A stretch of DNA of 64,000 nt from Candidatus Poribacteria bacterium (GTDB taxonomy: Bacteria; Poribacteria; WGA-4E; UBA9662). The DNA is taken from contig DTUY01000304.1 in NCBI GenBank assembly GCA_012963885.1, forward strand, positions 1 through 64,000, read 5' to 3'. Within the stretch, counting starts at the first letter, position 1. Each line of letters opens with the position of its first letter. Below the pieces are notes generated by a model. It was not told where the DNA came from. It did no database searches and saw only the letters and a program-made list of their open reading frames with translations. A program made the position numbers and the translations under genes. Of this stretch, positions 33,932 through 53,454 are shown one piece after another.

Positions 33932-34885
33932 TTACTGTTGGCTCGATTTGTTTCTGTTTTTAAAAACGACCCACATTATTACTGATAAACTGATAATAAT
34001 GATAATAAACCAGATGTGAAATCCCATTTCGGAATCTTGATTACTTGGTTGATTGGTATTTGCATTGACTATTTGGTTTGCTGTATCCATTTTTGTGGCC
34101 TGTTTGGGCGTTACCAGTTGCTTGCCAATTGGCTGATTCCCTGGAACTTTTGTCATTTCATCAATTAGAGACGAGGCCAATTCTTCAGTGAGTGGTGAAA
34201 TTAATTCGAATATATCCTCACCTCCAGAATCTATCCCTGTACCGGCAACCTCAGCCAGGACCTCAGATACCGCTTTAATTAGCTGTTCCGGATTGTCCGC
34301 CCGACGGTAACTATCAACAACAGTGGCTAACATATGATCTTGTTCCATGTCGACGCCGATTACATCGATCCGTATTTGTTTATGCATTATCTCTGGCGTA
34401 TACAGCCGAACTTTATCAGGGTCACTCGCTGCACCATCAGTGACAACTAATAGACGATAGCTGCCGTAGTTGTACTGTTTTTCCCGCTGTTCAAGAAGTC
34501 GGTTAGCACCAATTTTGAGGTATGTACCAAGGGGTGTTGTTCCGCCAGGTAGGGGAAAGTTAATCGCCTTAATCAAAGCCTCGTTGTCCTTTGGTCCGAG
34601 AGGATAAACCCAATGGTTTTTTACATTGGAACCACTGAAAACGAGTAGTCCAATATTGGTGCCGTCGAGAATTGTCGTTAAAACGGTTTGCAATGCTTCT
34701 TTGGCTGCATTCATCCTCGTCTTCGTTGGATCACTGCTGAATTTCTCCCCCATCGATCCCGACGCATCCAAGATAACGACAATGTTATCTGTGTGCACAT
34801 TTTCATCAGGTAAGACAGTCACAGATAAAGATACAAGGAAGGCATAGATAGTTAATAGCACCACTGGCGAGCTTGTGTTCTGCAT
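33932..34885 (-). CDS. Exported von Willebrand A domain protein with C-terminal membrane anchor
   Basis: A 317-residue protein. The signal is VVLLTIYAFLVSLSVTV, the VWA domain spans about residues 33-215 with an intact MIDAS (DASGS at 40-44, Thr in GGTTPLG, Asp in VVTDGAASD), then a linker rich in Asn, Gln and Thr, and a C-terminal helix IWFIIIIISLSVIMWVVF. It should sit in the periplasm, tethered by the tail. It is 82 bases downstream of the SBP-OmpA fusion gene on the same strand, so the two are probably co-transcribed and may act together at the envelope. Confidence 0.85.
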   Translation of the reverse strand: MQNTSSPVVLLTIYAFLVSLSVTVLPDENVHTDNIVVILDASGSMGEKFSSDPTKTRMNAAKEALQTVLTTILDGTNIGLLVFSGSNVKNHWVYPLGPKDNEALIKAINFPLPGGTTPLGTYLKIGANRLLEQREKQYNYGSYRLLVVTDGAASDPDKVRLYTPEIMHKQIRIDVIGVDMEQDHMLATVVDSYRRADNPEQLIKAVSEVLAEVAGTGIDSGGEDIFELISPLTEELASSLIDEMTKVPGNQPIGKQLVTPKQATKMDTANQIVNANTNQPSNQDSEMGFHIWFIIIIISLSVIMWVVFKNRNKSSQQ

Positions 34886-34967: not shown

Positions 34968-36815
34968 TTAGAAATCAAAATCGGCTTCAGCAACAGACTC
35001 GGAAGAGATCTTAATTAAGGCAAATTCCACACGTCGGTTTTTTCCTGCTTCCGCCGGATTAGTTGGCTTAGCAATGACAGGTTCTTTGATGCCAACTCCA
35101 ACTGGGACAATCTGTTCAGCTTCAATCCTCGCGTTTAGTCTATTGGCATAGGCAAGAATTGCTTGTTTGACAGCTTTACCTCTCTGCTCAGACAGTTTTA
35201 GACCAGCTCTCATTATTTGGTATGGTCCATCAAAGTCGCTCCCGTCATCAAATTTTTTTTGCTGAATGAGTCGAATCAATTCGGAGGTATCTTCCAAACT
35301 AAAGGGCCTACCGTTCATGAAGTACTCGTAATTCCCTCTAGTTCCCGTGCGCTTTAGAATTCCTCTTTTAATTCCGGTTTTTACCAGAGCGAACAGGACT
35401 TTCGAGGGATCGGTATGCCCTTTAATCGCTACTGCCGCGTTACCATACCGAGAAGCGAGCTCAATCACTCGATCGAATTCTTCACGATACCGGGCTTCAC
35501 TAAACGTATCTTGATTGGCCTCAAATTGAATTGTAAATGATATTAGTGTGTTGTCATCAAGAACGTCTTCTTCGCTAAATGTTTCAATTTCGGCTCTAAC
35601 CGATTCTTCTTTGAAACGTTTCCTTTGAATTGGGGTTGTAACGGTTGTTGTTAGGAAGGTTGCAAAGGTCGGCGAATTGAAATCCAAACTGGAAGGAATC
35701 AAATCGTATCTCTTTCTGGCAAATCCCCAGTTGACGGCCATGTCCAATCCATTTTTATTAAATCCTTCAAACCCGGTTACAATATTTGTAGGATCATTAA
35801 AAAATGCCATATTACCAGGTTGTCCGACAAAAGTACAATCAGCGATAAGTCCATGAGCGTCTTCATCAAGTGTTGGCAACACATCCTTCCCATAGATATC
35901 CTGCATCATTTGAAGTAGAGCCGTATACTCTTTTGATCCTCCCGATTCATAGCTCTTCTTCAACCGAATAACTTCTTCTGCCCCTTTCAGATACCCGGCA
36001 AAAAACTTTTCAATAATGCCTCTGCTCTTGTCGGAGTAGTCTTTTCGACATGCATAGACATCTGCAATCGATCGGGAGAGTGTTGCGGTACTAACCACCA
36101 ATCGTGCGCTTTTGACTGTACCTCCTGTACCGTCACCAACTGCTTGATAATCACCAACCAAGCTGAGCATATCTGGCGTAATGACAAAGCAACCGGAGAC
36201 CGTCGAATCTTTTCTGAACTTCTCTGCTGGGCTGTTTGCCCCCGTTAATTCATCCATCCAGATGATTTCCAGATCCGACTTTGGAAGCCTAGCAGTCAAC
36301 AACATATCGTACAGCATACCGATATGAGGTCCTCCCTTTTGTATGGCAATCTTTTTACCTTTTAAATCGGAGATCTTTCTGATATTAGACCTGCCGACGA
36401 AATGATCACCGGCAGACCAAGTTAACTGGCCAAAAACAACGCCCTGCGTTCTTGGGTCACGTCCAATCACTTCGCTAGCTTGGGCAATCATTCTAAACGT
36501 ACCACGCAGAATAGGAGATTTACCAGCCAGATAATCTCTGACTTGCTGCATGAAGTTATCACCTGGCACCAGCTTTAAATTTAATCCCAAACTCGCCATG
36601 ATTGAATTAGGTTGGGTGTTTAACCCTCCGTTAGCGTAGAACAGCGCCGATTCGCCTCCCCAGGTGATATAGGGAATCAACAACGGATCCTGAGATTGGA
36701 TAATTCTAACTCGAGTAGGCCCTATTTCGTCTGAGAAATATTGTTGCGCACTGGTCAGCGAAACGAAATATATCACACTCAGTAAAACAACGATAATCAA
36801 CCTCTTTAAAGGCAT
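34968..36815 (-). CDS. Exported substrate-binding protein fused to an OmpA-like domain
   Basis: A 615-residue periplasmic protein. The signal is RLIIVVLLSVIYFVSLTSA. An NMT1/THI5-like type 2 substrate-binding fold covers about residues 30-400 (DLKGKKIAIQKGGPHIGMLY, FFNDPTNIVTGFEGFNKN). A C-terminal OmpA-like peptidoglycan-binding domain covers about residues 425-610 (IQFEANQDTFSEARY, VAIKGHTDPSK, LSEQRGKAVKQAI, GKNRRVEFALIK). The Asp of GHTD and the Arg of LSxxR, which contact diaminopimelate in OmpA, are kept. About 50 residues are inserted between them. No transporter subunits are adjacent. A second SBP-OmpA fusion occurs at 47129-48691 in the ABC/PspA cluster. Confidence 0.85.
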   Translation of the reverse strand: MPLKRLIIVVLLSVIYFVSLTSAQQYFSDEIGPTRVRIIQSQDPLLIPYITWGGESALFYANGGLNTQPNSIMASLGLNLKLVPGDNFMQQVRDYLAGKSPILRGTFRMIAQASEVIGRDPRTQGVVFGQLTWSAGDHFVGRSNIRKISDLKGKKIAIQKGGPHIGMLYDMLLTARLPKSDLEIIWMDELTGANSPAEKFRKDSTVSGCFVITPDMLSLVGDYQAVGDGTGGTVKSARLVVSTATLSRSIADVYACRKDYSDKSRGIIEKFFAGYLKGAEEVIRLKKSYESGGSKEYTALLQMMQDIYGKDVLPTLDEDAHGLIADCTFVGQPGNMAFFNDPTNIVTGFEGFNKNGLDMAVNWGFARKRYDLIPSSLDFNSPTFATFLTTTVTTPIQRKRFKEESVRAEIETFSEEDVLDDNTLISFTIQFEANQDTFSEARYREEFDRVIELASRYGNAAVAIKGHTDPSKVLFALVKTGIKRGILKRTGTRGNYEYFMNGRPFSLEDTSELIRLIQQKKFDDGSDFDGPYQIMRAGLKLSEQRGKAVKQAILAYANRLNARIEAEQIVPVGVGIKEPVIAKPTNPAEAGKNRRVEFALIKISSESVAEADFDF

Positions 36816-38402: not shown

Positions 38403-40700
38403 TCAGTTTTCAATATCACGTGCGCAACGGAAACCGACCCAGGAAATCATTTGATCAGGTAGCAGCGGAAACCTCGCGGTTGTTCTCACACTTCTCGGAT
38501 TTAGACTCTTCCATGATCCACCACGGACTATCTTTGCTTTCCCAGGAACTTTCTTTGGTGTGACCCACTCCGCCACGTTTCCGGCTAAATCATGTATGCC
38601 CAACGGATTTGCACCTCTGGGGTAACTCCCTACTGGAACTGGTGCTTTAGATCTATAATTTAGTAGATTCCTGTCAGGAGGCTGGTTCCCCCAAGGAAAT
38701 AGACGCTGATTATTACCTCGAGCAATCCATTCCCACTCAGTCTCAGTCAATAAACGTTTACCTGCCCATTCTGCATAAGTTTGTGCACCGTACCAACTCA
38801 CGCCTACAACCGGGTGCCTTTCAAAGACGGATTGGACTTGATATCCATTGCTGGTTTTCTCAATCTTCGTGGCCTGAGAGTCAAGGCTAATTAACACTCT
38901 ACCATCTGTATCGACGACACGCTGATAACTGTTCAAAAAGCTGACGTACTCCGCGTTTGTAACTTCAAACCGATCAACATCAAATGCTAAGGTAAAAACT
39001 GTATTGCCTGATTTTTCTGAAATGTCACTGTCTATACCAATCACAAAATTACTTTCAGGAACCCGAATCATCTGGTCAGGCGGTCGCAGATCAACCTGCG
39101 TATTCTCTGCCGGTTGCTCCTCAGGTTGCTCTATGTTGAACACAACAATAGTAATCGGAAGTTTGGTGTCAAGTTCGCCATCGCTAACTGTCAACGTGAC
39201 TGGGATTTCAGTTTTAAGGTCTTCAGTAGACACAAAATCAAACGATGGTTCCCAGCGAATTCGATTCTTATCAAACTGAGCATCGCTTGGTAAATCCGTT
39301 GCGGTATAGGTGAGCGGATCGCCATTTCGATCATATGCCTGTACCTTGGTATCAAGCACTTCTCCTTCATTGACTGTTAATTTTGGTGTTGGAACTTCTC
39401 GTACCATAAACGCACCGATTTGGGTGAAGACTGGCGCAACGTTGATGGATTGCACCTCAATATCAAGATCAAGGGAGGTTGAGCGACCATCTTTCGTTTC
39501 TGCTAAAAATCTGATATTCTTTTCTCCGATCTGAGAGAAATCGGGTGTCCATCGAAACAGATTGCGGTTTGAATCAAAGTTGGTGTTATCGATCGGCGTA
39601 AATAACCGTATCATCGCTGATATTGAACAGTCGACTTGGATTTCGATAGTCTCTCCTACTGCGACAACATAAGGTGGTAGAGGAGTTGCCTTCAACACCA
39701 ATCTCTTTGGCTTTTTAGCCAACACCTGAGTCTTTTTCGGCTTTACTTGTTTTGCTATACTTCTCCTTCGGACTTCGCCACCAAGCCAAATTTTCCCCTC
39801 AGCAGTTGCAAAGGCAAATTGCTTGCCATTGCCCGCACAAGCCAGATTTTGAATAGGCGAATTAACTTGTTTGTATCGATATGTTTTTGTTATCCGGTTA
39901 GCTGATAGATTCCATACTTGTATTGTGTTATCAGATGATGCAGAAACAGCAACGTTAGGTTGACGTGCAAAACAGAAGCTTACAATTTTATCGTCATATT
40001 CCATCAGATTGCGCATGTCGCCTGTTTGACAGTCTCTTACCTCTACAATGTTATTACGGACAAGTGCCATTTGGTCGCCTAAAGGGCTGAACGCCATCAT
40101 ATTCATATTAACATCAGATCCGTTTATACCTTCCCACAATGTTTTTCTGAAACTGTGGAAACTGATTTTATTATTATGGCGAATTACGAATTGATGCTTG
40201 CTTGTTGGGATGAAACGGAGCTCTGTCACATAACTGTAATTCGCACCAATGACTTGCTTCGGTTTGGTTTGTCCAATATTAAATTTCAAAAGTGTTCCAT
40301 CAATCAAACCAACGTATAGTCCTGAAGATATGAACCAAATATCAGCGATTTCTTTTTTAATCTGTTCTGCTTGAATAGTGAATACTTTTTTTTGTCCTTG
40401 GATATCCCAGACGTGGATTGTACCAGTGCTTACAAGAACTGCAATCCAGTGTCTCTTTACTTCAAAGGCAACTTGTTTAGATACGTCGGGAAGCCGAATT
40501 GCGAAAATCCTCTTTCGCTTTTTAGTGTTATATAAATTCACACCACTGGAGGTAGTAGCCGCAATAATCTCATCATCGGCACTATAGTATAAGCCATGAA
40601 CTTTTTGGCGAGTTCCATCAATTAGGATTTGTGAGTCTGCCTCAAATTCCATGACTGTAAAGAAACAGAGAAACAGAAAAAGAACGAGAATCCTATGCAT
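38403..40700 (-). CDS. Exported beta-propeller / Ig-like / FGE-sulfatase-fold protein
   Basis: A 765-residue exported protein. The signal is ILVLFLFLCFFTVMEFEADS, then a WD40-like propeller (about residues 25-310; WDIQGQKKVF, ASASSDNTIQVWN). Two cadherin/Ig-like domains follow (about residues 325-530; GDPLTYTATDLPSDAQFDK). Last is a formylglycine-generating-enzyme-fold domain (about residues 545-760; FDVDRFEVTNAEYVSFLN, PVVGVSWYGAQTYAEWAGKR, GIHDLAGNVAEWV, RGGSW). The active-site cysteines of true FGE are missing from RGGSWKSLNPRSVRTTARF, so it is probably a non-catalytic or different-activity relative. A surface binding role is possible. Confidence 0.85.
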   Translation of the reverse strand: MHRILVLFLFLCFFTVMEFEADSQILIDGTRQKVHGLYYSADDEIIAATTSSGVNLYNTKKRKRIFAIRLPDVSKQVAFEVKRHWIAVLVSTGTIHVWDIQGQKKVFTIQAEQIKKEIADIWFISSGLYVGLIDGTLLKFNIGQTKPKQVIGANYSYVTELRFIPTSKHQFVIRHNNKISFHSFRKTLWEGINGSDVNMNMMAFSPLGDQMALVRNNIVEVRDCQTGDMRNLMEYDDKIVSFCFARQPNVAVSASSDNTIQVWNLSANRITKTYRYKQVNSPIQNLACAGNGKQFAFATAEGKIWLGGEVRRRSIAKQVKPKKTQVLAKKPKRLVLKATPLPPYVVAVGETIEIQVDCSISAMIRLFTPIDNTNFDSNRNLFRWTPDFSQIGEKNIRFLAETKDGRSTSLDLDIEVQSINVAPVFTQIGAFMVREVPTPKLTVNEGEVLDTKVQAYDRNGDPLTYTATDLPSDAQFDKNRIRWEPSFDFVSTEDLKTEIPVTLTVSDGELDTKLPITIVVFNIEQPEEQPAENTQVDLRPPDQMIRVPESNFVIGIDSDISEKSGNTVFTLAFDVDRFEVTNAEYVSFLNSYQRVVDTDGRVLISLDSQATKIEKTSNGYQVQSVFERHPVVGVSWYGAQTYAEWAGKRLLTETEWEWIARGNNQRLFPWGNQPPDRNLLNYRSKAPVPVGSYPRGANPLGIHDLAGNVAEWVTPKKVPGKAKIVRGGSWKSLNPRSVRTTARFPLLPDQMISWVGFRCARDIEN

Positions 40701-41490: not shown

Positions 41491-43209
41491 CTAATTTTCA
41501 CCCAATAAAATTTTCAATTCACTGATCTGCGTGTAAGCCTCTTGCTTGGTCATATCGACATATTTTTCCGGAATTAGGCTTTGGTATGAACATTCGACAA
41601 ATGCTAATAATTCCTGCAATTGTCGTTGTAAACTGATATCGTCGGGTATGAAATCATACCCAATTTCCAAAATCTCATCTACAGTCAGATTCCTCGATGT
41701 GAGATGTTTCTTGCGTTCAAGGTTGGTTAAAAATTGGACGAAATCAGCTGGAGAATAACTGGCGGTATGATCCAAAAATCGTCGTTTATGATCTTCAAGA
41801 AAATTATCAAGTGACAGTCCAACTTTTGATAAGACAAAGTTGATAAACTCTTCACGTTCTTGTCCTTCTGGATCAAAGACAGGTAAGTGTTCGCCAGCAC
41901 GTCCGGTTCGTTTGATATCCGGTTCTAATTTGTCAGGCCTAGCAGTGATAATTATCCAGATAATTTTCCCTCGATTATTAGGGTCACTCATCATCCTCAA
42001 AATTGCGCCAAAAAGTCGTTTATCGACATCATGTGTGCCAGCACTCCGTCCTCCAAGTTCTGTATCTGCTTCGTCATAGATCACCATTACATTTCCCATG
42101 ACTTCAAGGATTGACCGGATTCTCTCCCATGTCATTTCGGTCTGTCCCACGTACTGACCACGAACATTCTTGATAATTACCGGTAGGTAACCACACTCTT
42201 TGGCAAATGCTTTGAAAGTATAGGTCTTTCCAACACCGTTTGGACCAGGTACCAGAATGCCGGTTGGCATCAAGTCAGAGTTCCCACTCATGATGAAAGA
42301 CTTCATTTCTTCCAACTTGGCTAGTAACTTTTTGGCCCCAATTACATCAGAAAAATCATAGTTAATAATTGGGAATTCAATATTACCGCTGAGTTCTTTC
42401 TCAATTACTTCTTGCGTAAGCTTAAATATCATTTCAGCAGTTAGCTTCGTGTTGGTATGATTTGCTTGCATAAACATCTTCTGCAAATCTTGCAGTGTCA
42501 ATCCACCGGTGTAAAAAACGGCATCTTTTTCTTTTAGCCCTAAACTAACCTGGTGCTGCTTTTTCAGAAATCGGAGATACCTTTGCCGTTGTGTGTCGCT
42601 GGGGCGAGGAACTTGAATTGCGGTGACAAAAGGAAGTTCAACCACCGTTTCATTTAGTTCTGCTAGCGTTTGTGTAATTAGAACAGCCAGATGGCGTCCG
42701 CGAATAAAAGCAGGATCAGTAAACCATTGATGGAAAATCATCGCTTTTCGCTGTTCGACCTCGTTCGGATGATTGCTTTCCTGACGGTGGATCAACGATT
42801 CAACATGATTGATGATAAATCCCCATCCTTGCTTTTCGGAGTTAATAGTGTGAAGGCTGATTTTGCTCAATTCCTGAAGAAAAACCAATGCTTGCAGTGG
42901 ATGCTGGATACTATCTTGCATATACTTCTGAAGTTCAGCTTTTCCCAGAATGGACTCAACAAGAGCCAAGTCGTCTTGATTACGGAACTGAACACCACTA
43001 ATCAGATCGTAATAGGCAATGATACGCCGTTGATCGCCTTCTGGGGGATCCATCAGCCGTTTGAGACAATCAATTAAGCTATAGAACTGGTCTTTCCCAA
43101 GCGAATACAGATCGCGTACATTTCCGTATAGTATGAATTGATTACTCTGACCAGAATTGAACTTTTCGATAATTGTTTGTAGAAATTGCGGTGCTGATTT
43201 CCAATTCAT
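41491..43209 (-). CDS. Two-part AAA+ ATPase of the PspA/ABC cluster
   Basis: A 572-residue soluble ATPase resembling the Ycf46-type AAA+ proteins. The N-terminal half (residues 1-270) looks like a degenerate AAA domain lacking a Walker A (NQFILYGNVRDLYSLGKDQF). The C-terminal half is an active classic AAA module: Walker A GPNGVGKT at 322-329, Walker B VMVIYDEAD at 374-382, sensor ITARPD at 421-426, Arg-finger-like KRTGRAGE. It ends in a helical lid. It is the last gene of the block, 223 bases after the coiled-coil gene. A role in remodelling PspA or the membrane is inferred from context, not shown. Confidence 0.82.
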   Translation of the reverse strand: MNWKSAPQFLQTIIEKFNSGQSNQFILYGNVRDLYSLGKDQFYSLIDCLKRLMDPPEGDQRRIIAYYDLISGVQFRNQDDLALVESILGKAELQKYMQDSIQHPLQALVFLQELSKISLHTINSEKQGWGFIINHVESLIHRQESNHPNEVEQRKAMIFHQWFTDPAFIRGRHLAVLITQTLAELNETVVELPFVTAIQVPRPSDTQRQRYLRFLKKQHQVSLGLKEKDAVFYTGGLTLQDLQKMFMQANHTNTKLTAEMIFKLTQEVIEKELSGNIEFPIINYDFSDVIGAKKLLAKLEEMKSFIMSGNSDLMPTGILVPGPNGVGKTYTFKAFAKECGYLPVIIKNVRGQYVGQTEMTWERIRSILEVMGNVMVIYDEADTELGGRSAGTHDVDKRLFGAILRMMSDPNNRGKIIWIIITARPDKLEPDIKRTGRAGEHLPVFDPEGQEREEFINFVLSKVGLSLDNFLEDHKRRFLDHTASYSPADFVQFLTNLERKKHLTSRNLTVDEILEIGYDFIPDDISLQRQLQELLAFVECSYQSLIPEKYVDMTKQEAYTQISELKILLGEN

Positions 43210-43432
43210 TTTCTCAGTCTGCTGTTTTGAAAATTAAGGTGTTTACTGTTTCAAAGGGACAAGTTCATATTATGACATCTTTATAAGGATTATGCAATTG
43301 CTTAGACTGCTAGGGTGTTTAGGGGTGTTAATTGAGGTGGGAAATTTAACAAGTGTGGAATCTAAGAGTATTTTATTGCAAGTAAAGTTGATAGGTTGAA
43401 ATGATCCGTCGAGTCAAGAATCCCACAAGCCA

Positions 43433-44269
43433 CTAAGCTTTAACCTGAGGATTGATACCAAAATCTGCTAATTCTTGATTAACTTTTTTAGCAACTTCCA
43501 CTTCATCTCGCAATTTAGCTACTTGTTGCTCTAGACGTGAGGTATGATCGGCTGACTGTGGTTGAGATACAAGAAGAATAGTGCCCCGAAGCGAAGATTG
43601 CGCAGTAATTATGTCCTGTTCCAGTTGTTCCATTGCCGTCTCTAGCTTTTTAAGTTGGTTAAGTTCGTTGGTCAATGCTTGTATTGTCTGACGGTATTCT
43701 CTTTTGAGGTTGATATCTTTCTCATCTTCATACTTTGATTTTGTTTCATTCAGGTCTTGCTGCAACTTTTGAACATCGAACTGTTCTAACAGCGATTTAT
43801 AAGTGATTCGGCTTTTTAAGGATTTTATCGATTCGAAAGTGACCTCTCTGGACATCTGCATCAACTGATTGACCACCAATTGATTACCTAAATTCGTGAT
43901 CTTTTCATCAAGTATTTGTTCCAGTTTGATCAAGTTCTCAAAATGGGATCTACCGCGTTCGTCAAGTTTCTGATGAAGTTCCTCTCGGCTCTCCTGATCC
44001 AGACGAGTTCGTTCCTCGTCGTTATGTTGAATCTGGTCTTCAATCTGTTGTTGTATCCGCTTACGTGGTGCTTTACCTAGAAGAAAATAGTATGACAACG
44101 ATATAGTACTAGCGAGAAATGCCCCTAGGGCAAGAACAGGTTGATCAATAAATCCTAAGAAAATTCCAGCCGCCGCTGGACCATAAAAAAGAGGCTGAAA
44201 AAGACACTCTTTAAATAAATTCCAAGTCAATTTCTGGTATGAAAGATCATTGTCTTGGTGGATAGGCAT
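43433..44269 (-). CDS. Membrane-anchored coiled-coil protein of the cluster
   Basis: A 278-residue protein of unknown family. Two hydrophobic segments near the N-terminus (about residues 28-43 and 47-66: FYGPAAAGIFLGFIDQP and LALGAFLASTISLSYYFLLG) are followed by about 190 residues of charged coiled coil in the cytoplasm (RIQQQIEDQIQHNDEERTRL, LNETKSKYEDEKDINLKREY). The long helices resemble those of PspA and invite a role as membrane partner of PspA or adaptor for the AAA+ ATPase. It lies between the ABC ATPase (138 bases) and the AAA+ gene. Confidence 0.75.
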   Translation of the reverse strand: MPIHQDNDLSYQKLTWNLFKECLFQPLFYGPAAAGIFLGFIDQPVLALGAFLASTISLSYYFLLGKAPRKRIQQQIEDQIQHNDEERTRLDQESREELHQKLDERGRSHFENLIKLEQILDEKITNLGNQLVVNQLMQMSREVTFESIKSLKSRITYKSLLEQFDVQKLQQDLNETKSKYEDEKDINLKREYRQTIQALTNELNQLKKLETAMEQLEQDIITAQSSLRGTILLVSQPQSADHTSRLEQQVAKLRDEVEVAKKVNQELADFGINPQVKA

Positions 44270-44407
44270 TGTGACTTTCTAAGTACGCTCAATCGATCTA
44301 GATCCAACATCCTGCGCGAAAGTTGGCTAAAATATCAGTGGATTTCTATCGTTGAATATTCAAGTGGGCTTTGAGTAAGTGATCAGAGGTGAAAATTAGA
44401 CAAAGTC

Positions 44408-45292
44408 CTACTGGTTATCTGCTTTGTTTCGATAACTTTGGTCAAATGCTTCCACAATACCTTTCTGATCCGGTGCAAACCCTGACATCCGAATATCTTG
44501 GACTAATCCTCCAAAGTCTCCTGTTCGTTTCACGTCCGTGGATTTAAACACCGGAGCGTGGACATCTTTAACAATTGTGGCGCCCTCATTGTCGTCATGT
44601 AGCTTATACTGTGAGAGAACAATCACACGTTCAGCCACGTAGACTGCTTCTTCCAAATCGTGCGTTACGAAAAAAACGGTATTTTGTTCCTGTTCGTGAA
44701 TTTTTAGGATTAATATTTGAAGCACCTCTCGTGTTTGTGGATCAAGGGCACCAAACGGTTCATCCATGAGTAAAATTGATGGTTTTCGAATAATCTCCTG
44801 GGCGATGGCTACCCTTTGCTTCATCCCACCTGATAATTGATGAGGTTTCTTGCGTTCGGCTTCCTTCAAACCCATTTCCTGGAGATAAAGCCTTGCCTTT
44901 TCTCTGTAACTACGATGCAATTGCCTAAAACGAAAAGGACGAATCCATTTCATAAGAAAATTGATTTCCTCTAATTCCATACCGTAAGCTACATTATCAA
45001 TTACTGTCAACCAAGGAAAAAGCGTATAGTCCTGAAACACAATGCCTGTATTACGACTAGGTCCCTTGACGGGCTCTCCATCGACCAAGATTTGGCCTGA
45101 AGTGGGATGCATGAATCCAGCAATCAGGTTTAACAACGATGACTTACCGCAACCGCTGGGCCCAACAATAGCAACGAATTCGCCCCGTTTGACCTGTAAG
45201 TTGATGCCATCGAGAACAACCTTTGTCGTTTTTTGATCCTTAAAAACAAGTACCAGGTCCTTAATCTCCAATGCCAATGAGGATTCAGGCAT
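44408..45292 (-). CDS. ABC transporter ATPase, TauB/SsuB/NrtD type
   Basis: A 294-residue transporter ATPase. Walker A is GPSGCGKSSLLNL, the Q-loop is in GIVFQDYTLFPWLTV, the signature is LSGGMKQRVAIAQE, Walker B is ILLMDEPFGALDPQT and the His switch is FFVTHDLEEAVYVAE. Between the Q-loop and the signature is an insert of about 15 residues (FLMKWIRPFRFRQLHRSYRE), positively charged and aromatic, absent from ordinary TauB proteins. The C-terminal tail is longer than usual. It partners the adjacent permease (6-base gap) and two substrate-binding proteins; the transported solute is unknown. Confidence 0.93.
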   Translation of the reverse strand: MPESSLALEIKDLVLVFKDQKTTKVVLDGINLQVKRGEFVAIVGPSGCGKSSLLNLIAGFMHPTSGQILVDGEPVKGPSRNTGIVFQDYTLFPWLTVIDNVAYGMELEEINFLMKWIRPFRFRQLHRSYREKARLYLQEMGLKEAERKKPHQLSGGMKQRVAIAQEIIRKPSILLMDEPFGALDPQTREVLQILILKIHEQEQNTVFFVTHDLEEAVYVAERVIVLSQYKLHDDNEGATIVKDVHAPVFKSTDVKRTGDFGGLVQDIRMSGFAPDQKGIVEAFDQSYRNKADNQ

Positions 45293-45298
45293 GAATTT

Positions 45299-46120
45299 CT
45301 ATTTCTCCAAACTCCAAGCGTAACGTGTTTGAATGATCTTTAACAATATGAAATCACAGGTAAACCCGATGGCGCCAATGATAAAAATGTACCATAAAAT
45401 GATATTGACACCTATCTGTCTCTGAACCAGTATAATGCGGTAACCGAGTCCAGCTTCAGAGGCGATCATCTCGGCGGCGATTAAAAATATCCAAGCCTGT
45501 CGAAGCGTAAAGCGGATGCTGTTAAGGATTCTAGGCCAAGCGAACATCAGCACAACTTTGAAGACAACTTCTACAGTTGATGCTCCCATGGTGTAAGCCT
45601 TCTGTATCAGCTTCCTCGGTACATCTTTACAAGCTAGAAAAACATCCATCACTAGAATGAAATATGTTCCCAGAAAGATGAGCAGTATTTTGGCCGGTGT
45701 GTCCGTGCCAACAAAAATGAATATTAGGGGCAAAAGAGCTAGAGGCGGGATGAAACTGACAAAACGGACAAACTTCATATGCAACGCTTCAATGACTGAG
45801 AAGCAGGCCATGTGTAATCCAACGAGTACGGCGCAGGTGACAGTGATAGCTACACTGAGAACCATCAAACGGAGGCTATATTTGAGATCCTTCAATAGCC
45901 ATCTATCGCCGGTCCGGCAGTTAACTTCAACTGTTTTGACAATTCCTGTTTGAATCTGTTTCAGGTTTGGCATCATTCGATCTTTTGGGTTTTCCTGATG
46001 CCGTTTATGTGATCCGTAGAGATACAGCGCTATGACAAAGACAATAGGCAGAAGAACTAAAAGTGATGCCAATCGCGCATCAATTTCTTCTCCAACTCGG
46101 TATAATTTCCGCACACTCAT
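45299..46120 (-). CDS. ABC transporter permease, TauC/SsuC type
   Basis: A 273-residue inner-membrane permease with about six helices. The family EAA-like loop is seen in RKLIQKAYTMGASTVEVVFKVV, and AWIFLIAAEMIASEAGLGYRI is the typical region after it. It forms the channel with the ATPase encoded six bases downstream. The first ATG overlaps the upstream substrate-binding gene by four bases, so translation is coupled. The N-terminal helix (ASLLVLLPIVFVIALYLYG) is followed by an unusually long soluble segment of about 40 residues. Confidence 0.92.
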   Translation of the reverse strand: MSVRKLYRVGEEIDARLASLLVLLPIVFVIALYLYGSHKRHQENPKDRMMPNLKQIQTGIVKTVEVNCRTGDRWLLKDLKYSLRLMVLSVAITVTCAVLVGLHMACFSVIEALHMKFVRFVSFIPPLALLPLIFIFVGTDTPAKILLIFLGTYFILVMDVFLACKDVPRKLIQKAYTMGASTVEVVFKVVLMFAWPRILNSIRFTLRQAWIFLIAAEMIASEAGLGYRIILVQRQIGVNIILWYIFIIGAIGFTCDFILLKIIQTRYAWSLEK

Positions 46121-47109
46121 TTTGCTGGGCGAACAGCTTGAATAATCGTTGCATCGTATTTGAGATTGACCTTATCGTTGATTAGTCCATGACTTTTCGC
46201 GAATTTGACTACTTTCCTCTCCGTATTTTGGATTTCTTTACTGTTGAGGAGGTCTATGGCACGTTGAGGATCCAAAAACAGATCTGTTCCTCCAAGCATT
46301 TTATTGAATTCTGCCGGTTTAGTACCAGCCAACTCCGACATAATGCTAATGGCTTCCTGCCGCGTTTCAGGATTCTTAATCATGTCCATGGCATCATACC
46401 AAGCGGAGACGAAAGCTTGAGCAACTCTGGGGTTTTGCTTTAAACGTTTGTTATTAAATACCACCAAGTCGATAATTTCACCGGGGATCTTTTTACTGTT
46501 AAACAAAACGTAGCCGCGTCCTGCCTCCTCGGCCAGAAAAAGGTGTGGATTCCATGTAACAACCGCTTCTGCTCTTCCTGCTATAAAAGCGCGTCCCGCA
46601 TCATCACCAGGCGTGTTTTTTATCGTAACATCCCTTTCTGTTAACCCAATCGTTTCTAGATAACGAAGAAGTAAATAATGTGAAACTGAGAATTCTTCAA
46701 GTAGTATTTCTACGCCTTTAAAGTTTGAGCCATCAATACCATATTGAACCAGAATGCCATCTCCACCTTTACTGAAATCATTGACGAGCACGGCAGCAAC
46801 ATCAATTCCCGCATCAGCCGGTGGAAGCGCATCCATGATTGTCATTGCACAGGCATCCAGTTCCCCAGCGGTAAACGCCTGTACAGAGGCAAGATAATCC
46901 TTGAACTTCCTAAGTTCAATCTCAACTCCGTATTCTTGTGCCCGTCTTTTAAGGAATCCTTTCTCCTCCATCAAGTAAATTGGCATCCAGCCTGTCCAGA
47001 TAGAAACACCGACCTTAACTGGTTTTGCGTATATGACTTGATTGCTAATGAACACAAGTAAACAGGAAATAAGGAAATAAGATAAATATATTTGTAATTT
47101 ATGTCTCAA
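46117..47109 (-). CDS. ABC substrate-binding protein, NMT1/THI5-like
   Basis: A 330-residue periplasmic type 2 binding protein. The signal is LSYFLISCLLVFISNQVIYA, then KVGVSIWTGWMPIYLMEEKG, AFTAGELDACAMTIMDALP and DFSKGGDGILVQYG. This pattern recalls binding proteins encoded near urea/guanidine carboxylase genes, but no such enzyme and no riboswitch is nearby, so the ligand stays open. It is followed with a four-base overlap by the permease. It is one of two binding proteins encoded in a row; the other carries an OmpA domain. Confidence 0.9.
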   Translation of the reverse strand: MRHKLQIYLSYFLISCLLVFISNQVIYAKPVKVGVSIWTGWMPIYLMEEKGFLKRRAQEYGVEIELRKFKDYLASVQAFTAGELDACAMTIMDALPPADAGIDVAAVLVNDFSKGGDGILVQYGIDGSNFKGVEILLEEFSVSHYLLLRYLETIGLTERDVTIKNTPGDDAGRAFIAGRAEAVVTWNPHLFLAEEAGRGYVLFNSKKIPGEIIDLVVFNNKRLKQNPRVAQAFVSAWYDAMDMIKNPETRQEAISIMSELAGTKPAEFNKMLGGTDLFLDPQRAIDLLNSKEIQNTERKVVKFAKSHGLINDKVNLKYDATIIQAVRPAK

Positions 47110-47128
47110 TTTTTGCCTCCGTTAAACT

Positions 47129-48691
47129 TTATCTGTCTTTGACCAGCACAAATTCAGTACGTTGGTTTCGTTCCAACCAATCAGCATAAGCCTCATTTTG
47201 GTCGCGTTCGAGTGGTTCTCTGTCACCATGAGCGACAGTATTAATCCGGCTGCCTTGAACACTGTGTTCTCGAACCAGATACTGGGCAATTGATCCAGCG
47301 CGTTTCCTGGAGAGGTCCATGTTGATCTGGGATGAACCGGTAGGAGATGAGTAACCATGCAGGACCAAACGGTAGTTCGGATAGTGGAGAAGAGTATCGG
47401 AAAATTTATCAACAACTAGTTTCGACTGTTGACTTAACTTTGCCGAACCGCTACCGAAGTAGATGGGATCAACTCTCATTTCACCGATGCGTTGAGTTTT
47501 ACTTTCAATCTCCTCGGCTTTCATCCTGGTAAATTGCCGCTTAGTCTCAACTGGTGGCGGTGCCACCTCTTTTTCTGGCATGCCTTTGATTTGAGGTGCC
47601 GCACTCGGGGTCAACTGGCTGAGAAAATCCTTATTCACTATCCAATATGCTCCACCGGGTTTGCTGGCAAATGGGTCTGTCATCAATTTATCATGAAATT
47701 GTTGAACACTAATTGTATCTTCAATAACCTTTGCAATCTTGTCAGTGGCAGTCTGACCTATGCCAAACCAGAGGTGATGGTTTTCCCTCAGATCGATAAA
47801 GTCGATACCATTCATGATGTTTTTCGCCACTGATTGATCAACCCCTCCATCTTCCGCTAGATACTGGATGAATTCAGATTCTCGTTTTTGGTAATAATCA
47901 AGCGTCTTAAAATATGCGCGAGTCACTTTCTGTACAACTTGTGGATTGCTTGTAACGATTTGGCGTGAGGCGATGCAGACATCGATGATAATGTCATCAC
48001 TATCTTTGGTGCTGGTTAATAAGGTGTAGCCTTCCTGAATAGCACGTGATGTTTCAGGTTCCCATACAACTGCTGCCTCAACCTGTCCTTGTTTCAACAT
48101 TTGGTAGGATTTCTCTGAAAGTCCATCAGTCACCGGCATACGCTTAATGCTAAGAATGTCGAAGTGTGTCAATGTGACATCTAATAGATGTTCACTGGGG
48201 AAACCTTTCGAGTAGGAGACCTTTGCACCCTCTAAATCGTCTAGAGCTTGAATTTTTGAACTGGCGACAACCGAATCGCCACCGTTGGATTCATCTACCA
48301 AAAAGATAATAACGCCTGGATAGTTCAAGTTGATGGCATTGAGTGTATAGCCGTCGATTGTGGCGACCACAAAATCATATTTGCCATTGACCAATCCTTG
48401 AAAACGTTTTTCCAGATCTTCCTCTGTTTCATAGCGGTAACCAATCTGAAGTTGGGAAAGAACCGTACGGAATCGATCGGAGCGAAAGAGACTATAACCA
48501 GACCACGGATCACCGGCAACGGTGATATTGGTATCGAAACGACCACCGCTACTGGCTTGATCGTATTTTTTCGCTTGTTGGTTTTCTTGAAGTTTGGGAA
48601 TCACATATTTGTAAGCAAGGCCACCGATGACAGCTGTAAGAATAACGAGTATCATAAAGATCCGGCCAAGTGCCAATTTTTGTTCCGCCAT
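47129..48691 (-). CDS. Membrane-anchored substrate-binding protein fused to an OmpA-like domain
   Basis: A 520-residue protein. One membrane helix near the N-terminus (about residues 9-27, IFMILVILTAVIGGLAYK) tethers it. A type 2 substrate-binding fold covers about residues 55-350 (DLEGAKVSYSKGFPSEHLL, QGQVEAAVVWEPETSRAI). A proline-rich linker is followed by the OmpA-like domain (about residues 405-518: PIYFGSGSAKLSQQSKLVVD, INMDLSRKRAGSIAQYLV, RNQRTEFVLV). The Arg of LSxxRA is kept, but the usual GHxD is GYSS, so peptidoglycan binding may be altered. It could tie the transporter to the cell wall. AGGAG precedes its ATG. Confidence 0.88.
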   Translation of the reverse strand: MAEQKLALGRIFMILVILTAVIGGLAYKYVIPKLQENQQAKKYDQASSGGRFDTNITVAGDPWSGYSLFRSDRFRTVLSQLQIGYRYETEEDLEKRFQGLVNGKYDFVVATIDGYTLNAINLNYPGVIIFLVDESNGGDSVVASSKIQALDDLEGAKVSYSKGFPSEHLLDVTLTHFDILSIKRMPVTDGLSEKSYQMLKQGQVEAAVVWEPETSRAIQEGYTLLTSTKDSDDIIIDVCIASRQIVTSNPQVVQKVTRAYFKTLDYYQKRESEFIQYLAEDGGVDQSVAKNIMNGIDFIDLRENHHLWFGIGQTATDKIAKVIEDTISVQQFHDKLMTDPFASKPGGAYWIVNKDFLSQLTPSAAPQIKGMPEKEVAPPPVETKRQFTRMKAEEIESKTQRIGEMRVDPIYFGSGSAKLSQQSKLVVDKFSDTLLHYPNYRLVLHGYSSPTGSSQINMDLSRKRAGSIAQYLVREHSVQGSRINTVAHGDREPLERDQNEAYADWLERNQRTEFVLVKDR

Positions 48692-48803
48692 TACTGTATT
48701 TCTCCTACTTTTAAGTGAAGTTGTAAGGATTGATTGGAGAGGATTATGGAATGCTAGTTGCTAGCTACGGCAATCTTGAATCGAAATTCGAATATAAAAT
48801 ATC

Positions 48804-49568
48804 CTATTCTCCTAACTTGCGTTCCTCTGCTGTTTCTGTCTGGGATTGACCCTCCTTTGTCTGCTGTCTTTGTTTCAGTCTCTCTGAGAACTCATTGGTT
48901 CCAGTACTCTGCTTAGCTGCAGCTCGATAGCGTTCGCGTTGACGGGACACATTCGTGCCGCCAATCTCAGAAGAAATTTGTGCCTTAGCCTTTGTATCCT
49001 GAACTTTGCGACGAACGGCATCTAATGCCTGATCCGTACCCTCTGTTGAAAGACCTTGTAGTCTCTGCTCGATTCGAACAATTGATTCACTGCTGATCAA
49101 ATCAGCGACGGCTTCATCACCTTCTTGTTTCAATGACTGAACACGTTCCTGGAAATTGCCAAGTTCGATTTTGTAGTTTTCAACCTTCTGGTCTAGTTCT
49201 TCAAACTTACCTTGACGCTGTTCTAGATGAACTTCTAATTCTTCCTTTCTTGTGAAAGCGCGATTGTAGGCTTCTTCATGCACTTGTTGGTTTTCGGGTT
49301 CACGCTCAGCAATAGCTAAGGCCCCTTCCATTTCCTGCTCCGATTCGCTGAGTTGCTCTTCGTCTTTTTGGATCTCCTGTTCTGTTTGCGCCCTTTGCCG
49401 TGCAAGTGAAGAAACAGCATCAAGCATCTGGTTGTAACGTTTAATTTCTTGTTCTTCTATTGTTCTGTAAGTTGCTTTGATGCTTGATGTGCTTCCTGAA
49501 ACGATGTCATCTCCTGCTTGAAGGAAAAAACCCTTGATTCGAATAAGGACTGATGAAAAAAAACCCAT
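48804..49568 (-). CDS. pspA: PspA/IM30-family protein
   Basis: A 254-residue ESCRT-III-like membrane stress protein. The N-terminal amphipathic helix is MGFFSSVLIRIKGFFLQAG, followed by the PspA coiled-coil hairpin (VSSLARQRAQTEQEIQKDEE, HLEQRQGKFEELDQKVENYK, SLKQEGDEAVADLISSESIV). The tail is hydrophilic. Such proteins bind damaged inner membrane and form rods. GAGGAGG precedes the start. Its position inside an ABC/AAA+ cluster with no pspB, pspC or pspF suggests a different regulatory arrangement from the enterobacterial psp operon. Confidence 0.9.
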   Translation of the reverse strand: MGFFSSVLIRIKGFFLQAGDDIVSGSTSSIKATYRTIEEQEIKRYNQMLDAVSSLARQRAQTEQEIQKDEEQLSESEQEMEGALAIAEREPENQQVHEEAYNRAFTRKEELEVHLEQRQGKFEELDQKVENYKIELGNFQERVQSLKQEGDEAVADLISSESIVRIEQRLQGLSTEGTDQALDAVRRKVQDTKAKAQISSEIGGTNVSRQRERYRAAAKQSTGTNEFSERLKQRQQTKEGQSQTETAEERKLGE

Positions 49569-49618
49569 TTTCCTGCCTCCTCAGATATATTGATGTTTAA
49601 AATAAACTAAATAATCTA

Positions 49619-50470
49619 TTATTCTGATTCACTCGGTTTGGGTTGCCCGAGAAATTTTACCACTTCCGCGCACTTAGCCTCGTAGTCATTTAGAATGCTA
49701 ATATCCTGGTTGAATTTATGGATTAAAGCCTGTTTCCTAGCTCGAAGCTCATTTAGACTATTCTGTCGATTTTCTTCCAGATCCTGGATTCTCATGTCCA
49801 TTTCTGCTTTCAACTGATCTATTTCCTGATTGGTTTCCTGTTCAATCTGTTTCATATCGTCCTCGGTTTGTTGAACCTGTGCATGGTGTTCTTGCTGATA
49901 GCTTTCTTCAAACTCTTCGCAAATTGCTCCTTTTTGCAGAGCATCCTGAACGATATCCTCAACAGACTTGCCTGAAACTTTGATAACAGGCGGTAGACTT
50001 TCTTTTGGGACACCTTCTTCAATGAGTTGCATTACTTTTTCAACTGAGTATTCACCACTATCTAGCTCCCAATTGCGATCAATTCCACCAGCTGTCAGAA
50101 TTTTATCAATATCTATTCTGCTCTCATCATCATCGAACTCACCTGCGGGTAGGTCAAATAATATCTGAGAAACAGCACTATCAACAGAACTCAAGTCTTC
50201 TTGATTAATAATTTCATCTGGCCCCTCTGAGGTTTCGAAGTTTCTGTTTTCTTCGTTTATTTTTTCCAGAAAAGGGTTTGGTTCATCATTATTATGCCCA
50301 GTTTCAGTGGGATCCTGTAGAAAAGGATTTGATTCATTTTGACTTTCATCTGTATCTTCAGGGAAATCCACCAAGAAAGGATTTGGTTCGTTATCGGTGT
50401 CCTGATTCTCATCTTTTTCTGGCTTTTCTGTCTCAACAGTTTTATAAAAAAGCTTTTTTATAAAGCCCAT
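49619..50470 (-). CDS. Acidic NPFL-repeat coiled-coil protein, first gene of the PspA cluster
   Basis: A 283-residue soluble protein of unknown family. It begins MGFIKKLFYKTVE, a short amphipathic helix like that of PspA. Residues about 15-85 are strongly acidic and hold three copies of an N-P-F-L motif about 22 residues apart (EPNPFLVDF, ESNPFLQDP, EPNPFLEKI). A second part (about 130-185) is compact (RIDIDKILTAGGIDRNWEL), and the last 90 residues are coiled coil. The ATG at 50470 fits the 5' leader from the promoter and the amphipathic start; an in-frame ATG also lies at 50485. It could be a membrane-recruited partner of PspA. Confidence 0.75.
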   Translation of the reverse strand: MGFIKKLFYKTVETEKPEKDENQDTDNEPNPFLVDFPEDTDESQNESNPFLQDPTETGHNNDEPNPFLEKINEENRNFETSEGPDEIINQEDLSSVDSAVSQILFDLPAGEFDDDESRIDIDKILTAGGIDRNWELDSGEYSVEKVMQLIEEGVPKESLPPVIKVSGKSVEDIVQDALQKGAICEEFEESYQQEHHAQVQQTEDDMKQIEQETNQEIDQLKAEMDMRIQDLEENRQNSLNELRARKQALIHKFNQDISILNDYEAKCAEVVKFLGQPKPSESE

Positions 50471-50485
50471 ATGCCATTCAGCCAA

Positions 50486-50871
50486 ACCCTAAAATTTTGG
50501 GGATTCTAACACAATTCTATCTTCCATTCAACTGAAAACTTAAAGTGCTCCAAGGAAGGTCGGGGTAACGTGATTTTGGAGATAAACAAGCTAATTTAAA
50601 TGCCAATATCAGCTACAGTCTTTCTCAAACTATGCCAATTTGACAAAAATCTCTAACTTTTGTTATGGAATCAACGTTTTTTAAGATATCCAAATCTAAA
50701 CCACGGGCTTTAAGATAAAATCGAGATTAACCCTAAGGAAATCATTCGGTCATCTTTAATGAACCATCTTGTTGGAACTGATTATGACTTTCCAAAATCA
50801 ATGCTATTTGGGAATTGGTATTAAACTTGCTCCTTTCACTGGAAATAAAACAGCAGAGGTGAGTATTAACA
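50486..50871. other. Divergent intergenic region between the cluster and clpB
   Basis: About 385 bases. It holds the minus-strand promoter above. I see no convincing promoter, heat-shock element or small gene for clpB, and no terminator. Confidence 0.5.
50503..50531 (-). promoter_or_regulatory. Promoter of the PspA/ABC/AAA+ cluster
   Basis: On the minus strand TTGAAT (50526-50531, 4 of 6), a 17-base spacer and TAGAAT (50503-50508, 5 of 6) with TGT just before it, an extended -10. It lies about 30 bases before the first gene. Confidence 0.55.
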
Positions 50872-53454
50872 ATGAGATACGATCAATTTACAATTAAAGC
50901 ACAAGAAATTATACAAAAAGCACAAGATCTAGCTGTCCAAACGCAAAGCCCAGAAATTAATCCGGATCATCTGCTTGAAGCATTAGTAACCCAGGAGGAT
51001 GGAGTAACCCAACCGATTCTTCAGAAACTTGGAGCAGACGTTGAGGGGATAAGACTGGCATTAAATCAAGCACGTGATCGCAACCCAAAAGTACAAGGAA
51101 CAGGTCAGGAACCGGTTGTCTCACACACGTTAAAACGCGTTTTTGACCTAGCCTTAAAAGAAGCAACTCATCTTAAAGACGAGTATCTGAGCACTGAGCA
51201 TCTTCTGATCGGTATCGTAGAAGAGAAGATGAGTCAAGCCGCCAAAATTCTGAAGAATCACGGTGTTACCAAAGATCAGGTTCTCAAGTCACTTGTCGCT
51301 ATTCGCGGAGGACAACAGGTTACCGATCAGAACGCCGAAGAGAAATATCAATCGCTTACACGCTTCGGTCAGGATTTGACACTCGCAGCTCAAGCTGGAA
51401 AACTTGATCCTGTTATCGGTCGTGATGATGAAGTTCGCCGAATTTTACAGGTGTTATCACGTCGGCGTAAAAATAATCCTGTGTTAATAGGGGAACCGGG
51501 TGTTGGGAAAACAGCCATTGTCGAGGGACTAGCTCAGAGAATTGTCAATGGCGATGTTCCAGAGACCCTGAAAGACAAAAAATTAATCGCCCTTGATCTT
51601 GGTGCAATGCTAGCAGGCGCAAAGTATCGTGGTGAGTTTGAAGATCGGTTAAAAGCTGTGTTGAAGGAAATCGAACAAGCTGATGGCAGAGTCATCCTGT
51701 TTATTGATGAATTGCACACTATTGTTGGCGCGGGAGCGGCAGAGGGAGCGGTTGATGCCTCGAACATGCTTAAGCCTGCGCTTGCACGCGGTGAGTTGCG
51801 ATGTATTGGTGCTTCTACGCTTGATGAGTACCGCAGACATGTTGAAAAAGACGCAGCATTGGAGAGACGTTTTCAACCGGTGATGGTCGGTGAACCGTCA
51901 GTTGAAGAGACAATTGCGATCTTACGTGGCTTAAAGGAACGTTATGAAACACATCACGGTGTCCAAATTCAGGACAACGCTATTGTTGCAGCCGCGACGT
52001 TGTCAAACCGCTATATCTCGGATCGTTTCCTGCCAGACAAAGCAGTAGATCTAATTGATGAGGCTGCATCTTGTTTAAGAATTGAGATTGATAGTGTGCC
52101 GCAAGAAATTGATGAAGTTGATCGTAAGATCATTCAGCTTGAGATTGAACGGCAAGCACTTGACAAAGAGGAGGATGAGGCTTCAAAGGAACGACTAATC
52201 CAACTCACTTCCGAACAATCCGATCTCGGGGAAAGACGGAACCAACTCAAAGCCAAGTGGCACAACGAAAAAGAGATGCTTCAAGGTATCCGCGAGATTA
52301 TGGAGCAGATCGAAACGTTGAAAATCAGGGAAGAACAAGCTAGGCGCACCGGAGATCTCACCTTAGCGTCACGAATACTATACGGAGATCTTCCAAGTTT
52401 GGAATCACAGCTTGGAAATGCTAAATCAAGTTTGGAAAAGATGCAGGGATTAGGACAACTCCTGAAAGAAAAGGTTGATCAAGATGACGTGGCTGAAGTC
52501 GTTTCAAAATGGACAGGTATTCCTGTTGCTAAAATGTTAGAAGGTGAAATCCAAAAGCTGGTTCAGATGGGAATTCGGCTTCAGGCAGATGTCATCGGTC
52601 AAGATGAAGCAATTGCTATTGTGTCTAACGCGATACGGAGGTCCCGTGTTGGCTTACAGGATCAGAACAGGCCAATCAGTTCTCTTATCTTTATGGGGCC
52701 GACTGGTGTTGGGAAAACACATCTTGCTAAGACCTTAGCTGCTTTTCTATTTGACGATGAAAACACCATAATTAGAATTGATATGAGTGAATACATGGAG
52801 AAACACTCCGTGTCAAAGCTAATCGGTGCTCCCCCTGGATACGTGGGTTACGACGAGGGTGGGCAATTGACCGAAGCAATTCGACGGAAACCGTATGCCG
52901 TTATACTTTTAGATGAGATTGAGAAAGCACATCCTGAAGTCCTCAATATACTATTACAACTTTTCGATGACGGTCGCTTGACAGACGGTCAGGGGCGAGT
53001 TGTTGATTTCAAAAATACTGTCGTCATCATGACCTCAAATATTGGCAGTCAATGGTTCAATGATAAGAGTTTGGATCCAGACGAGGTTCATCGGCGGATT
53101 GTGGAATCTTTACAACAGCATTTCCGTCCCGAATTCCTTAATCGAATCGATGATCAGATTGTTTTCAATCAGCTCGACCTAAAATCCATAAAGCAAATTG
53201 TCCAGCTTGAACTAGATCAAGTTGCCCTGAGACTGTCGGATAAAAATATCAACCTGCAGATTTCAGAATTGGCCAAGGAAGAACTAGCTAAACAAAGCTA
53301 TGACGAAATTTATGGCGCTAGACCGCTTCGGCGCACTATTCAGCGTAAGATTCTAGATCCTTTAGCTATCCAACTCCTTGAAGACAAATTTAGTGATAAA
53401 AGTAATCTTCACGTTGACTTTGAGGACGGTCAGTTTCACTTTCATCAGTCCTGA
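50872..53454 (+). CDS. clpB: ClpB disaggregase
   Basis: Hsp100 chaperone that resolves aggregated proteins with DnaK, in the cytoplasm. The Clp-N domain has two repeats ([20 protein letters not shown] and [15 protein letters not shown]). The first ATPase has Walker A GEPGVGKT at 207-214 and [14 protein letters not shown]. The middle coiled coil runs from about residue 410 to 530, and the second ATPase has GPTGVGKT and [17 protein letters not shown]. The pore loop KYRGEFE in the first ring is visible. At 860 aa it is normal. It is divergent from the PspA cluster, which would be consistent with a shared stress context. Confidence 0.97.

Follow-up and report, generated by a model that had tools for sequence, protein, structure and literature searches.

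The 64,000-nucleotide stretch analyzed here (positions 1 to 64,000 of contig DTUY01000304.1 from a Candidatus Poribacteria bacterium, assembly GCA_012963885.1; hereafter the window) carries a divergent and rearranged copy of a nine-gene system whose sequences show that a PspA and a two-ring AAA+ ATPase, both dedicated to it, are inherited together. Around this pspA-AAA core are an envelope module, composed of a secreted fusion of substrate-binding protein (SBP) and OmpA domains (SBP-OmpA2), the membrane-anchored proteins vWA and SBP-OmpA1, and CC, a protein with a membrane hairpin, together with an optional NitT/TauT ABC importer. We tentatively favor the reading that this is a modular inner-membrane remodeling system, in which the AAA+ would extract PspA from membrane polymers by its C-terminal tail under the influence of a wall-anchored periplasmic module. 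With less confidence, we consider it possible that the system is an ESCRT-III machine of bacteria whose dedicated AAA+ disassembler arose independently of Vps4; it would combine a two-ring Cdc48/Rix7 motor, a C-terminal -LP[E/L/V/I] handle on a specialized PspA, and peptidoglycan-anchored SBP/vWA control from the periplasm. The genes of the system in the window are:

33932..34885, minus strand: vWA protein with signal peptide, vWA domain and C-terminal transmembrane helix (Pfam VWA 49.6 bits; family hidden Markov model (HMM) 422 bits)
34968..36815, minus strand: SBP-OmpA2, secreted SBP-OmpA protein with a conserved C-terminal FDF (family HMM 1012 bits)
41491..43209, minus strand: AAA+ ATPase of 572 amino acids, predicted inactive in its first AAA domain (D1) and active in its second (D2) (Pfam AAA, AlphaFold, Foldseek)
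43433..44269, minus strand: CC, membrane-hairpin helical protein (hhalign; hydrophobic hairpin and helical layout)
44408..45292, minus strand: ABC ATPase, NitT/TauT type (ABC_tran 127.6 bits; best NCBIfam matches SaoA/TauB-like, below equivalog cut-offs)
45299..46120, minus strand: ABC permease (BPD_transp_1 47.5 bits)
46117..47109, minus strand: periplasmic SBP (NMT1_2 74.7 bits; TIGR03427 273 bits against a cut-off of 333.9)
47129..48691, minus strand: SBP-OmpA1, with N-terminal membrane anchor, SBP domain and OmpA domain (OmpA 61.2 bits, NMT1 27.7 bits)
48804..49568, minus strand: PspA/IM30-family protein, a specialized divergent copy (Pfam 25.9 bits; family profile to Vipp1)
48807..48815, minus strand: PspA tail -LGE, the window-clade counterpart of -LP[E/L/V/I] (tail comparison)

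The association between PspA and the AAA+ extends far beyond the window. A search of the AAA+ alignment against 84,980 species genomes returned 205 relatives, of which the best 80 loci were kept; a PspA gene stands close to the AAA+ gene in 73 of these 80 (loci with 1.5 kb or more of upstream flank), a proportion that may be lower in the remaining loci because the 80 are the best scorers. Neighborhood profiles gave the gene order SBP-OmpA2, vWA, SBP-OmpA1, CC, PspA, SBP, permease, ABC ATPase, AAA+, which recurs exactly in 20 loci from at least nine phyla: Verrucomicrobiota (eight), Planctomycetota (three), Thermodesulfobacteriota (two), Sumerlaeota, Acidobacteriota, CSSED10-310, Pseudomonadota and Muiribacteriota (one each), and two loci without a phylum label, one of them from a genome of the window's own phylum, Poribacteria. 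The PspA-linked AAA+ proteins form a monophyletic clade (SH-aLRT 100; 52 rows in a tree of 60 sequences), outside which fall two-AAA relatives without PspA neighbors. The initial annotation had named eight families as one unit and had offered, as grounds for giving this up, AAA+ and CC homologues lying mostly away from PspA and ABC genes. PspA, AAA+, CC, SBP-OmpA, and ABC genes did prove to be a conserved unit, while the eighth protein, named for its NPFL repeats, is restricted to the window genus; the proposed grounds failed for PspA and were mixed for the ABC genes, since pspA-AAA pairs without ABC are common. A plasmid link was considered and rejected, in that the similar two-AAA proteins of Paenibacillaceae plasmids lack PspA and are placed by the AAA+ tree in its outgroup; related two-AAA proteins are encoded on Paenibacillaceae megaplasmids (L054, L055, L056), again without PspA, and two of these proteins adjoin DUF262 genes. 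No relatives were found on viral contigs.

The PspA of the operon is distant from its better known relatives. The window protein scores 25.9 bits against Pfam PF04012 (PspA_IM30; cut-off 33.9), so that of the Pfam families matched by the operon proteins AAA, ABC_tran, BPD_transp_1, NMT1_2, and OmpA all exceed their Pfam cut-offs and PspA_IM30 falls below. Another poribacterial operon PspA reaches 35.9 bits, and a profile of 20 operon PspAs matches Vipp1/PspA structures (E=2.7e-8), which supports placing the operon PspA in the PspA/IM30 family of the ESCRT-III superfamily. A housekeeping PspA elsewhere in the window genome scores 180 bits, against 26 for the operon copy. Operon PspAs end in a variable linker followed by a conserved tail. 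In the main AAA+ clade this tail reads LP[E/L/V/I] at 63 of 68 loci; none of the nine divergent-clade loci has it, their ends being LGE, LG, RPEI, and others. Among operon PspAs at less than 70% identity the tail is present in 17 of 32 (about 0.04 expected from composition), the entropy of the last three columns is 1.0-1.4 bits as compared to about 2.9 in the linker, and the tail is retained in pspA-AAA pairs that lack ABC genes. It was absent from the seven housekeeping PspAs checked, a set with one further candidate open reading frame (ORF) that the operon PspA profile did not recognize. Since the tail codons include all six Leu and four Pro codons, with GGAG in only 4 of 52, we rejected the possibility that the tail is a ribosome-binding-site artifact. 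A near-invariant Phe at PspA position 227 was likewise set aside as a specific MIM-like motif, since a similar E/D-x-F-x-x-L segment occurs in housekeeping PspAs. From these patterns we infer that the tail would serve as a handle for the AAA+. Three poribacterial loci (L037:5178-5933, L107, L110) carry extra, truncated, tail-less PspA copies just before the tailed PspA, possibly capping or co-polymer subunits. In poribacterial genera g8 and g10 a family of about 600 amino acids without a Pfam match lies between PspA and the AAA+ (L037:6944-8752, L053:6959-8818, L038:6983-8665, L040:10481-12346) and is a candidate lineage-specific partner.

The presumed motor is a Rix7/p97-type two-ring machine and is not a Vps4 by architecture or best match. 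Residues 318-442 of the window AAA+ match Pfam AAA (65.7 bits), and its AlphaFold model (pLDDT 89) gave a whole-length Foldseek match to two-ring Rix7 (E=4.5e-18), with further matches to NVL, p97, and Drg1; by sequence, D2 is nearest to VCP-like proteins, Afg2, and Cdc48. The catalytic sites, of which the D2 sensor and arginine-finger positions are those we take to correspond to p97, are:

43105..43131, minus strand: D1 P-loop site, replaced by G-N-x-x-D-L (LYGNVRDLY, residues 27-35) and without the Walker A Lys (G29 and D33 invariant in 31 sequences)
42223..42246, minus strand: D2 Walker A, GPNGVGKT (322-329; G322, G325, G327, K328 invariant in 31 sequences)
42139..42156, minus strand: D2 aromatic pore loop, QYVGQT (352-357; W/Y at 353 in 29 of 31, G355 and T357 invariant)
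42070..42075, minus strand: D2 Walker B Asp-Glu (379-380; invariant in 31 sequences)
41899..41910, minus strand: D2 arginine fingers R434 and R437 (R437 invariant, R434 in 29 of 31)

By sequence, D1 is dead, and the usual sensor-1 Asn is the only threading or hydrolysis motif that D2 lacks. A two-ring fold nearest to Rix7 and p97, an aromatic pore loop in D2, and a neighboring membrane helical protein would also suit membrane-protein quality control, in which a Cdc48/Msp1-like AAA+ extracts faulty membrane proteins with PspA as membrane adaptor or shield and CC as receptor. We regard this explanation as rather unlikely: the operon has no protease gene, and the conserved C-terminal tail carried by PspA suggests that PspA itself is the substrate. 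A role in anti-phage defense was rejected, as the only matches were weak ones to IetA (27 bits) and ZorB (24.5 bits) that amount to general AAA and OmpA similarity. The window genome encodes a second two-AAA protein of 799 amino acids (G000:C189; L049:9014-11413), which adjoins a 1925-amino-acid protein and two ABC ATPases and is kept in the sister genome (L051).

Gene content within Poribacteria suggests that the system is built of nested modules. We searched 85 genomes of the phylum and found an AAA+ match in 69 (E<=1e-20). All 42 genomes with SBP-OmpA2 also carry the AAA+ (hypergeometric 1.9e-7), and SBP-OmpA2 co-occurs with CC (1.5e-14) even when unlinked from pspA-AAA; both probabilities are nominal and inflated because the genomes are related. 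Genera g8 to g11 carry the system in two pieces, with pspA-AAA at one site and SBP-OmpA2, vWA, SBP-OmpA1, and often CC at another; in one genome (G082) the two parts stand at 0.57 Mb and 3.41 Mb of a single contig. The operon ABC ATPase and permease had no match in nine of 14 genomes tested (G082, G046, G084, G080, and G083, each of these five a single contig, and G081, G028, G027, and G016) at thresholds of E<=1e-40 and 1e-15, which a very divergent ABC would escape; all nine keep the PspA-AAA pair or more, and six have the envelope module. The pspA-AAA pair without ABC is in fact the commonest form in the phylum. These patterns make pspA-AAA the core and the envelope module the next layer, with the ABC module optional. 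The initial annotation had read the cluster as one machine linking solute traffic to membrane repair. A conserved unit is indeed present, and the AAA+ acting on PspA is still the best mechanism; solute transport, on the other hand, is not essential to the unit, since nine poribacterial genomes keep PspA-AAA without an operon ABC match. The same observations count against a mainly transport system, in which the ABC importer does the work, solute is caught at the wall by the SBP-OmpA proteins, and the task of PspA and the AAA+ is to assemble, protect, or repair the surrounding membrane. Such a reading, shared by the initial annotation, is part of what Ravi et al. (PMC11237479) have proposed, and the nine-gene operon has its ABC genes intact and often overlapping, running SBP, permease, ATPase directly upstream of the AAA+. 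Given the prevalence of ABC-less pairs and the retention of the envelope module in six such genomes, we find it unlikely.

The envelope module offers a plausible link to the cell wall. The relevant sites are:

47291..47359, minus strand: peptidoglycan site of OmpA1, HGYSSPTG...LSRKRA, which has lost the binding Asp (no Asp in 29 of 29 family members, Arg kept)
35397..35423, minus strand: peptidoglycan-binding site of OmpA2, an intact GHTD motif followed later by LSEQR (Asp and Arg in 21 of 21 family members)
34754..34768, minus strand: vWA metal site DASGS (D-x-S-G-S conserved in the family)

The Asp of OmpA domains binds diaminopimelate (residue roles from PMC5974059). The initial annotation expected peptidoglycan binding of the SBP-OmpA protein that it listed, SBP-OmpA1, which lacks this residue in all 29 members, whereas the overlooked SBP-OmpA2 has it. 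Since OmpA1 lost the Asp and OmpA2 keeps both Asp and Arg, OmpA2 is probably the wall anchor. The extreme C-termini are conserved as well: SBP-OmpA2 ends -DFDF (FDF in 11 of 13) and SBP-OmpA1 mostly -PY. CC is modeled as a membrane hairpin and helical bundle (pLDDT 83). A fold search of CC against the PDB gave no significant match (best IncA, E=0.038), hhalign to PspA detected no homology (0.6%), and a sequence search against ESCRT-III had no match; these searches give no support to CC as an ESCRT-III homologue. Among 195 verrucomicrobial genomes sampled, CC was found in four, always beside SBP-OmpA1 and in three of the four beside a detected PspA. The window CC aligns with the CC family of the nine-gene operon (about 255 amino acids) over 33 C-terminal columns (hhalign 89.9%), and the two share a hydrophobic hairpin followed by a helical layout.

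We propose that PspA polymerizes on the inner membrane at its cytoplasmic side, that the AAA+ hexamer would grip the PspA tail and thread single subunits out, as Vps4 does with ESCRT-III (PMC11746142), and that the polymer would thereby be remodeled and recycled. CC might hold the machine at the membrane and connect it to the periplasmic proteins, which SBP-OmpA2 would anchor to peptidoglycan. The SBP domains of the SBP-OmpA proteins could sense a small ligand or the state of the envelope and switch the cytoplasmic cycle, and the ABC transporter, where present, could add ligand-dependent input or uptake. Several points weigh against this proposal. The AAA+ may not be what the tail binds, and common descent alone may account for the way tail and AAA+ clade covary. 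The AAA+ itself is not orthologous to Vps4, showed no MIT domain, and has Ala (A423) in place of the D2 sensor-1 Asn. The roles given to CC, vWA, and the SBP domains are drawn solely from topology, and the window CC, which is likely a very divergent counterpart of the nine-gene CC family, has weak homology to it.

In enteric bacteria, PspA of the canonical system inhibits the AAA+ protein PspF. By analogy, the operon PspA might sequester or inhibit its AAA+ as a signaling switch, with no polymer being dismantled. A Pfam scan and the AlphaFold model revealed no DNA-binding or sigma-54 domain in the window AAA+, and we consider such a switch improbable. That the genes are together by chance or transfer, without a joint function, would fit the patchy distribution (CC in 4 of 195 verrucomicrobial genomes) and the mosaic window copy, but is already disfavored to the point of being scarcely credible by a gene order shared among at least nine phyla and by co-occurrence even when unlinked.

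The window copy departs from the common order. All eight consecutive minus-strand genes at 41491-50531 named in the initial annotation were found, as were the 4-base overlap at 46117-46120 and the gaps of 6 and 19 bases. The remaining gaps of 50, 112, 138, and 223 bases make internal promoters possible; a site scan of the window found no minus-strand terminator-like sites between the eight genes. The "good promoter" upstream did not hold up, with 20 sites found against 26.7 expected from shuffles, and the boundary was drawn too narrowly, as SBP-OmpA2 and vWA belong to the same system 5-8 kb downstream. These two genes follow an FGE/WD40 protein, a gene that we take from its sequence to be DapB, and a Coq4-like gene; the first of these, between the two system halves (38403-40700), is a fusion of a WD40-type propeller and sulfatase-modifying-factor (FGE-like) domains. 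On the other side of the operon lies a divergent clpB (50872-53454), an adjacency otherwise seen only in the sister genome. The first gene of the run is:

49619..50485, minus strand: NPFL protein, a genus-specific acidic coiled-coil protein (matches confined to the window genus)

Its ORF starts with TTG, and the ATG at 50470 (MGFIKK...) is the likelier start, in agreement with the sister genome, where one of three NPFL repeats is intact. The motif was rejected as a conserved binding motif, being genus-specific and decaying, and the protein, by its homologue distribution, is not part of the conserved system since homologues were found only in the window genus. An Rfam search had no match.

The two halves of the window copy, which comes from a 6.84 Mb assembly of 420 contigs, differ in their relationships. 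SBP-OmpA2 is 67% identical to its homologue in the same family, 67-75% to most homologues in the phylum, and 52-55% across phyla. Outside the genus, the highest identities are 45% for the AAA+, 34% for PspA, and 29% for SBP-OmpA1, and the tree places the AAA+ with Coatesbacteria and Desulfomonile (support 85). The core therefore seems to have been exchanged for a divergent one, while SBP-OmpA2 and vWA, the older genes, were retained.

The initial annotation took the cluster to be undescribed. This kind of operon is, however, already known from Ravi et al. 2024 (PMC11237479), whose main text describes PspA with a two-AAA+ protein, the first domain inactive, in longer operons (example OGG56892.1) that also hold a transmembrane Snf7 homologue, an ABC ATPase, a permease, and a PBPB-OmpA protein, and predicts ATP-dependent remodeling linked to solute transport. 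The window shares PspA, the two-AAA protein with inactive first AAA, the transmembrane helical protein, both ABC components, and the SBP-OmpA fusion. It differs in being rearranged and divergent; in addition, that main text makes no mention of vWA or of a second SBP-OmpA, and it calls the transmembrane protein a Snf7 homologue, which our sequence and fold searches do not support. No experimental study of this operon type was found in the literature library searched. What is new here is the full gene set and order, the nested modules, which show the core versus the optional parts, the typing of the AAA+ as Rix7/p97 two-ring, the OmpA1/OmpA2 Asp contrast, a CC without detectable ESCRT-III homology, and, as the main new lead, the conserved PspA tail.

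NitT/TauT ABC importers (SsuABC, TauABC, and the UCA-associated type) share the SBP, permease, and ATPase families with the operon, which differs in having SBP domains also fused to OmpA; no NCBIfam equivalog cut-off for a substrate subfamily was reached (best TIGR03427, 273 versus 333.9 bits). The canonical Psp system (pspFABC) shares the PspA family. As the initial annotation stated, pspB, pspC, and pspF are missing, in that Pfam found no such domain in the operon proteins (the rest of the genome was not searched for them), and the window genome differs further in having a separate housekeeping PspA.

The ESCRT-III/Vps4 (Cdv) systems of archaea and eukaryotes resemble the operon in having an ESCRT-III-superfamily polymer protein that has a C-terminal tail and stands beside a dedicated AAA+. 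The operon AAA+ differs from the single-ring, MIT-bearing Vps4 type in being a two-ring Cdc48/Rix7 protein without MIT domain, with two AAA domains whose best matches are VCP-like, Afg2, and Rix7; it scores 22 bits with the CdvC model (cut-off 650), and the -LP[E/L/V/I] tail corresponds to no MIM motif known. According to a published report, vps4-containing ESCRT systems occur only in archaea and eukaryotes (PMC10936438); no clear homologue of Vps4 is said to exist in bacteria, and the way in which PspA polymers are taken apart is an open question (PMC7615534, PMC11746142). With a dedicated PspA and two-ring AAA+ inherited together across many phyla, and a three-residue tail that can be deleted, this question becomes a simple in vitro test, one relevant to how ESCRT-III-like polymers of bacteria are pulled apart.

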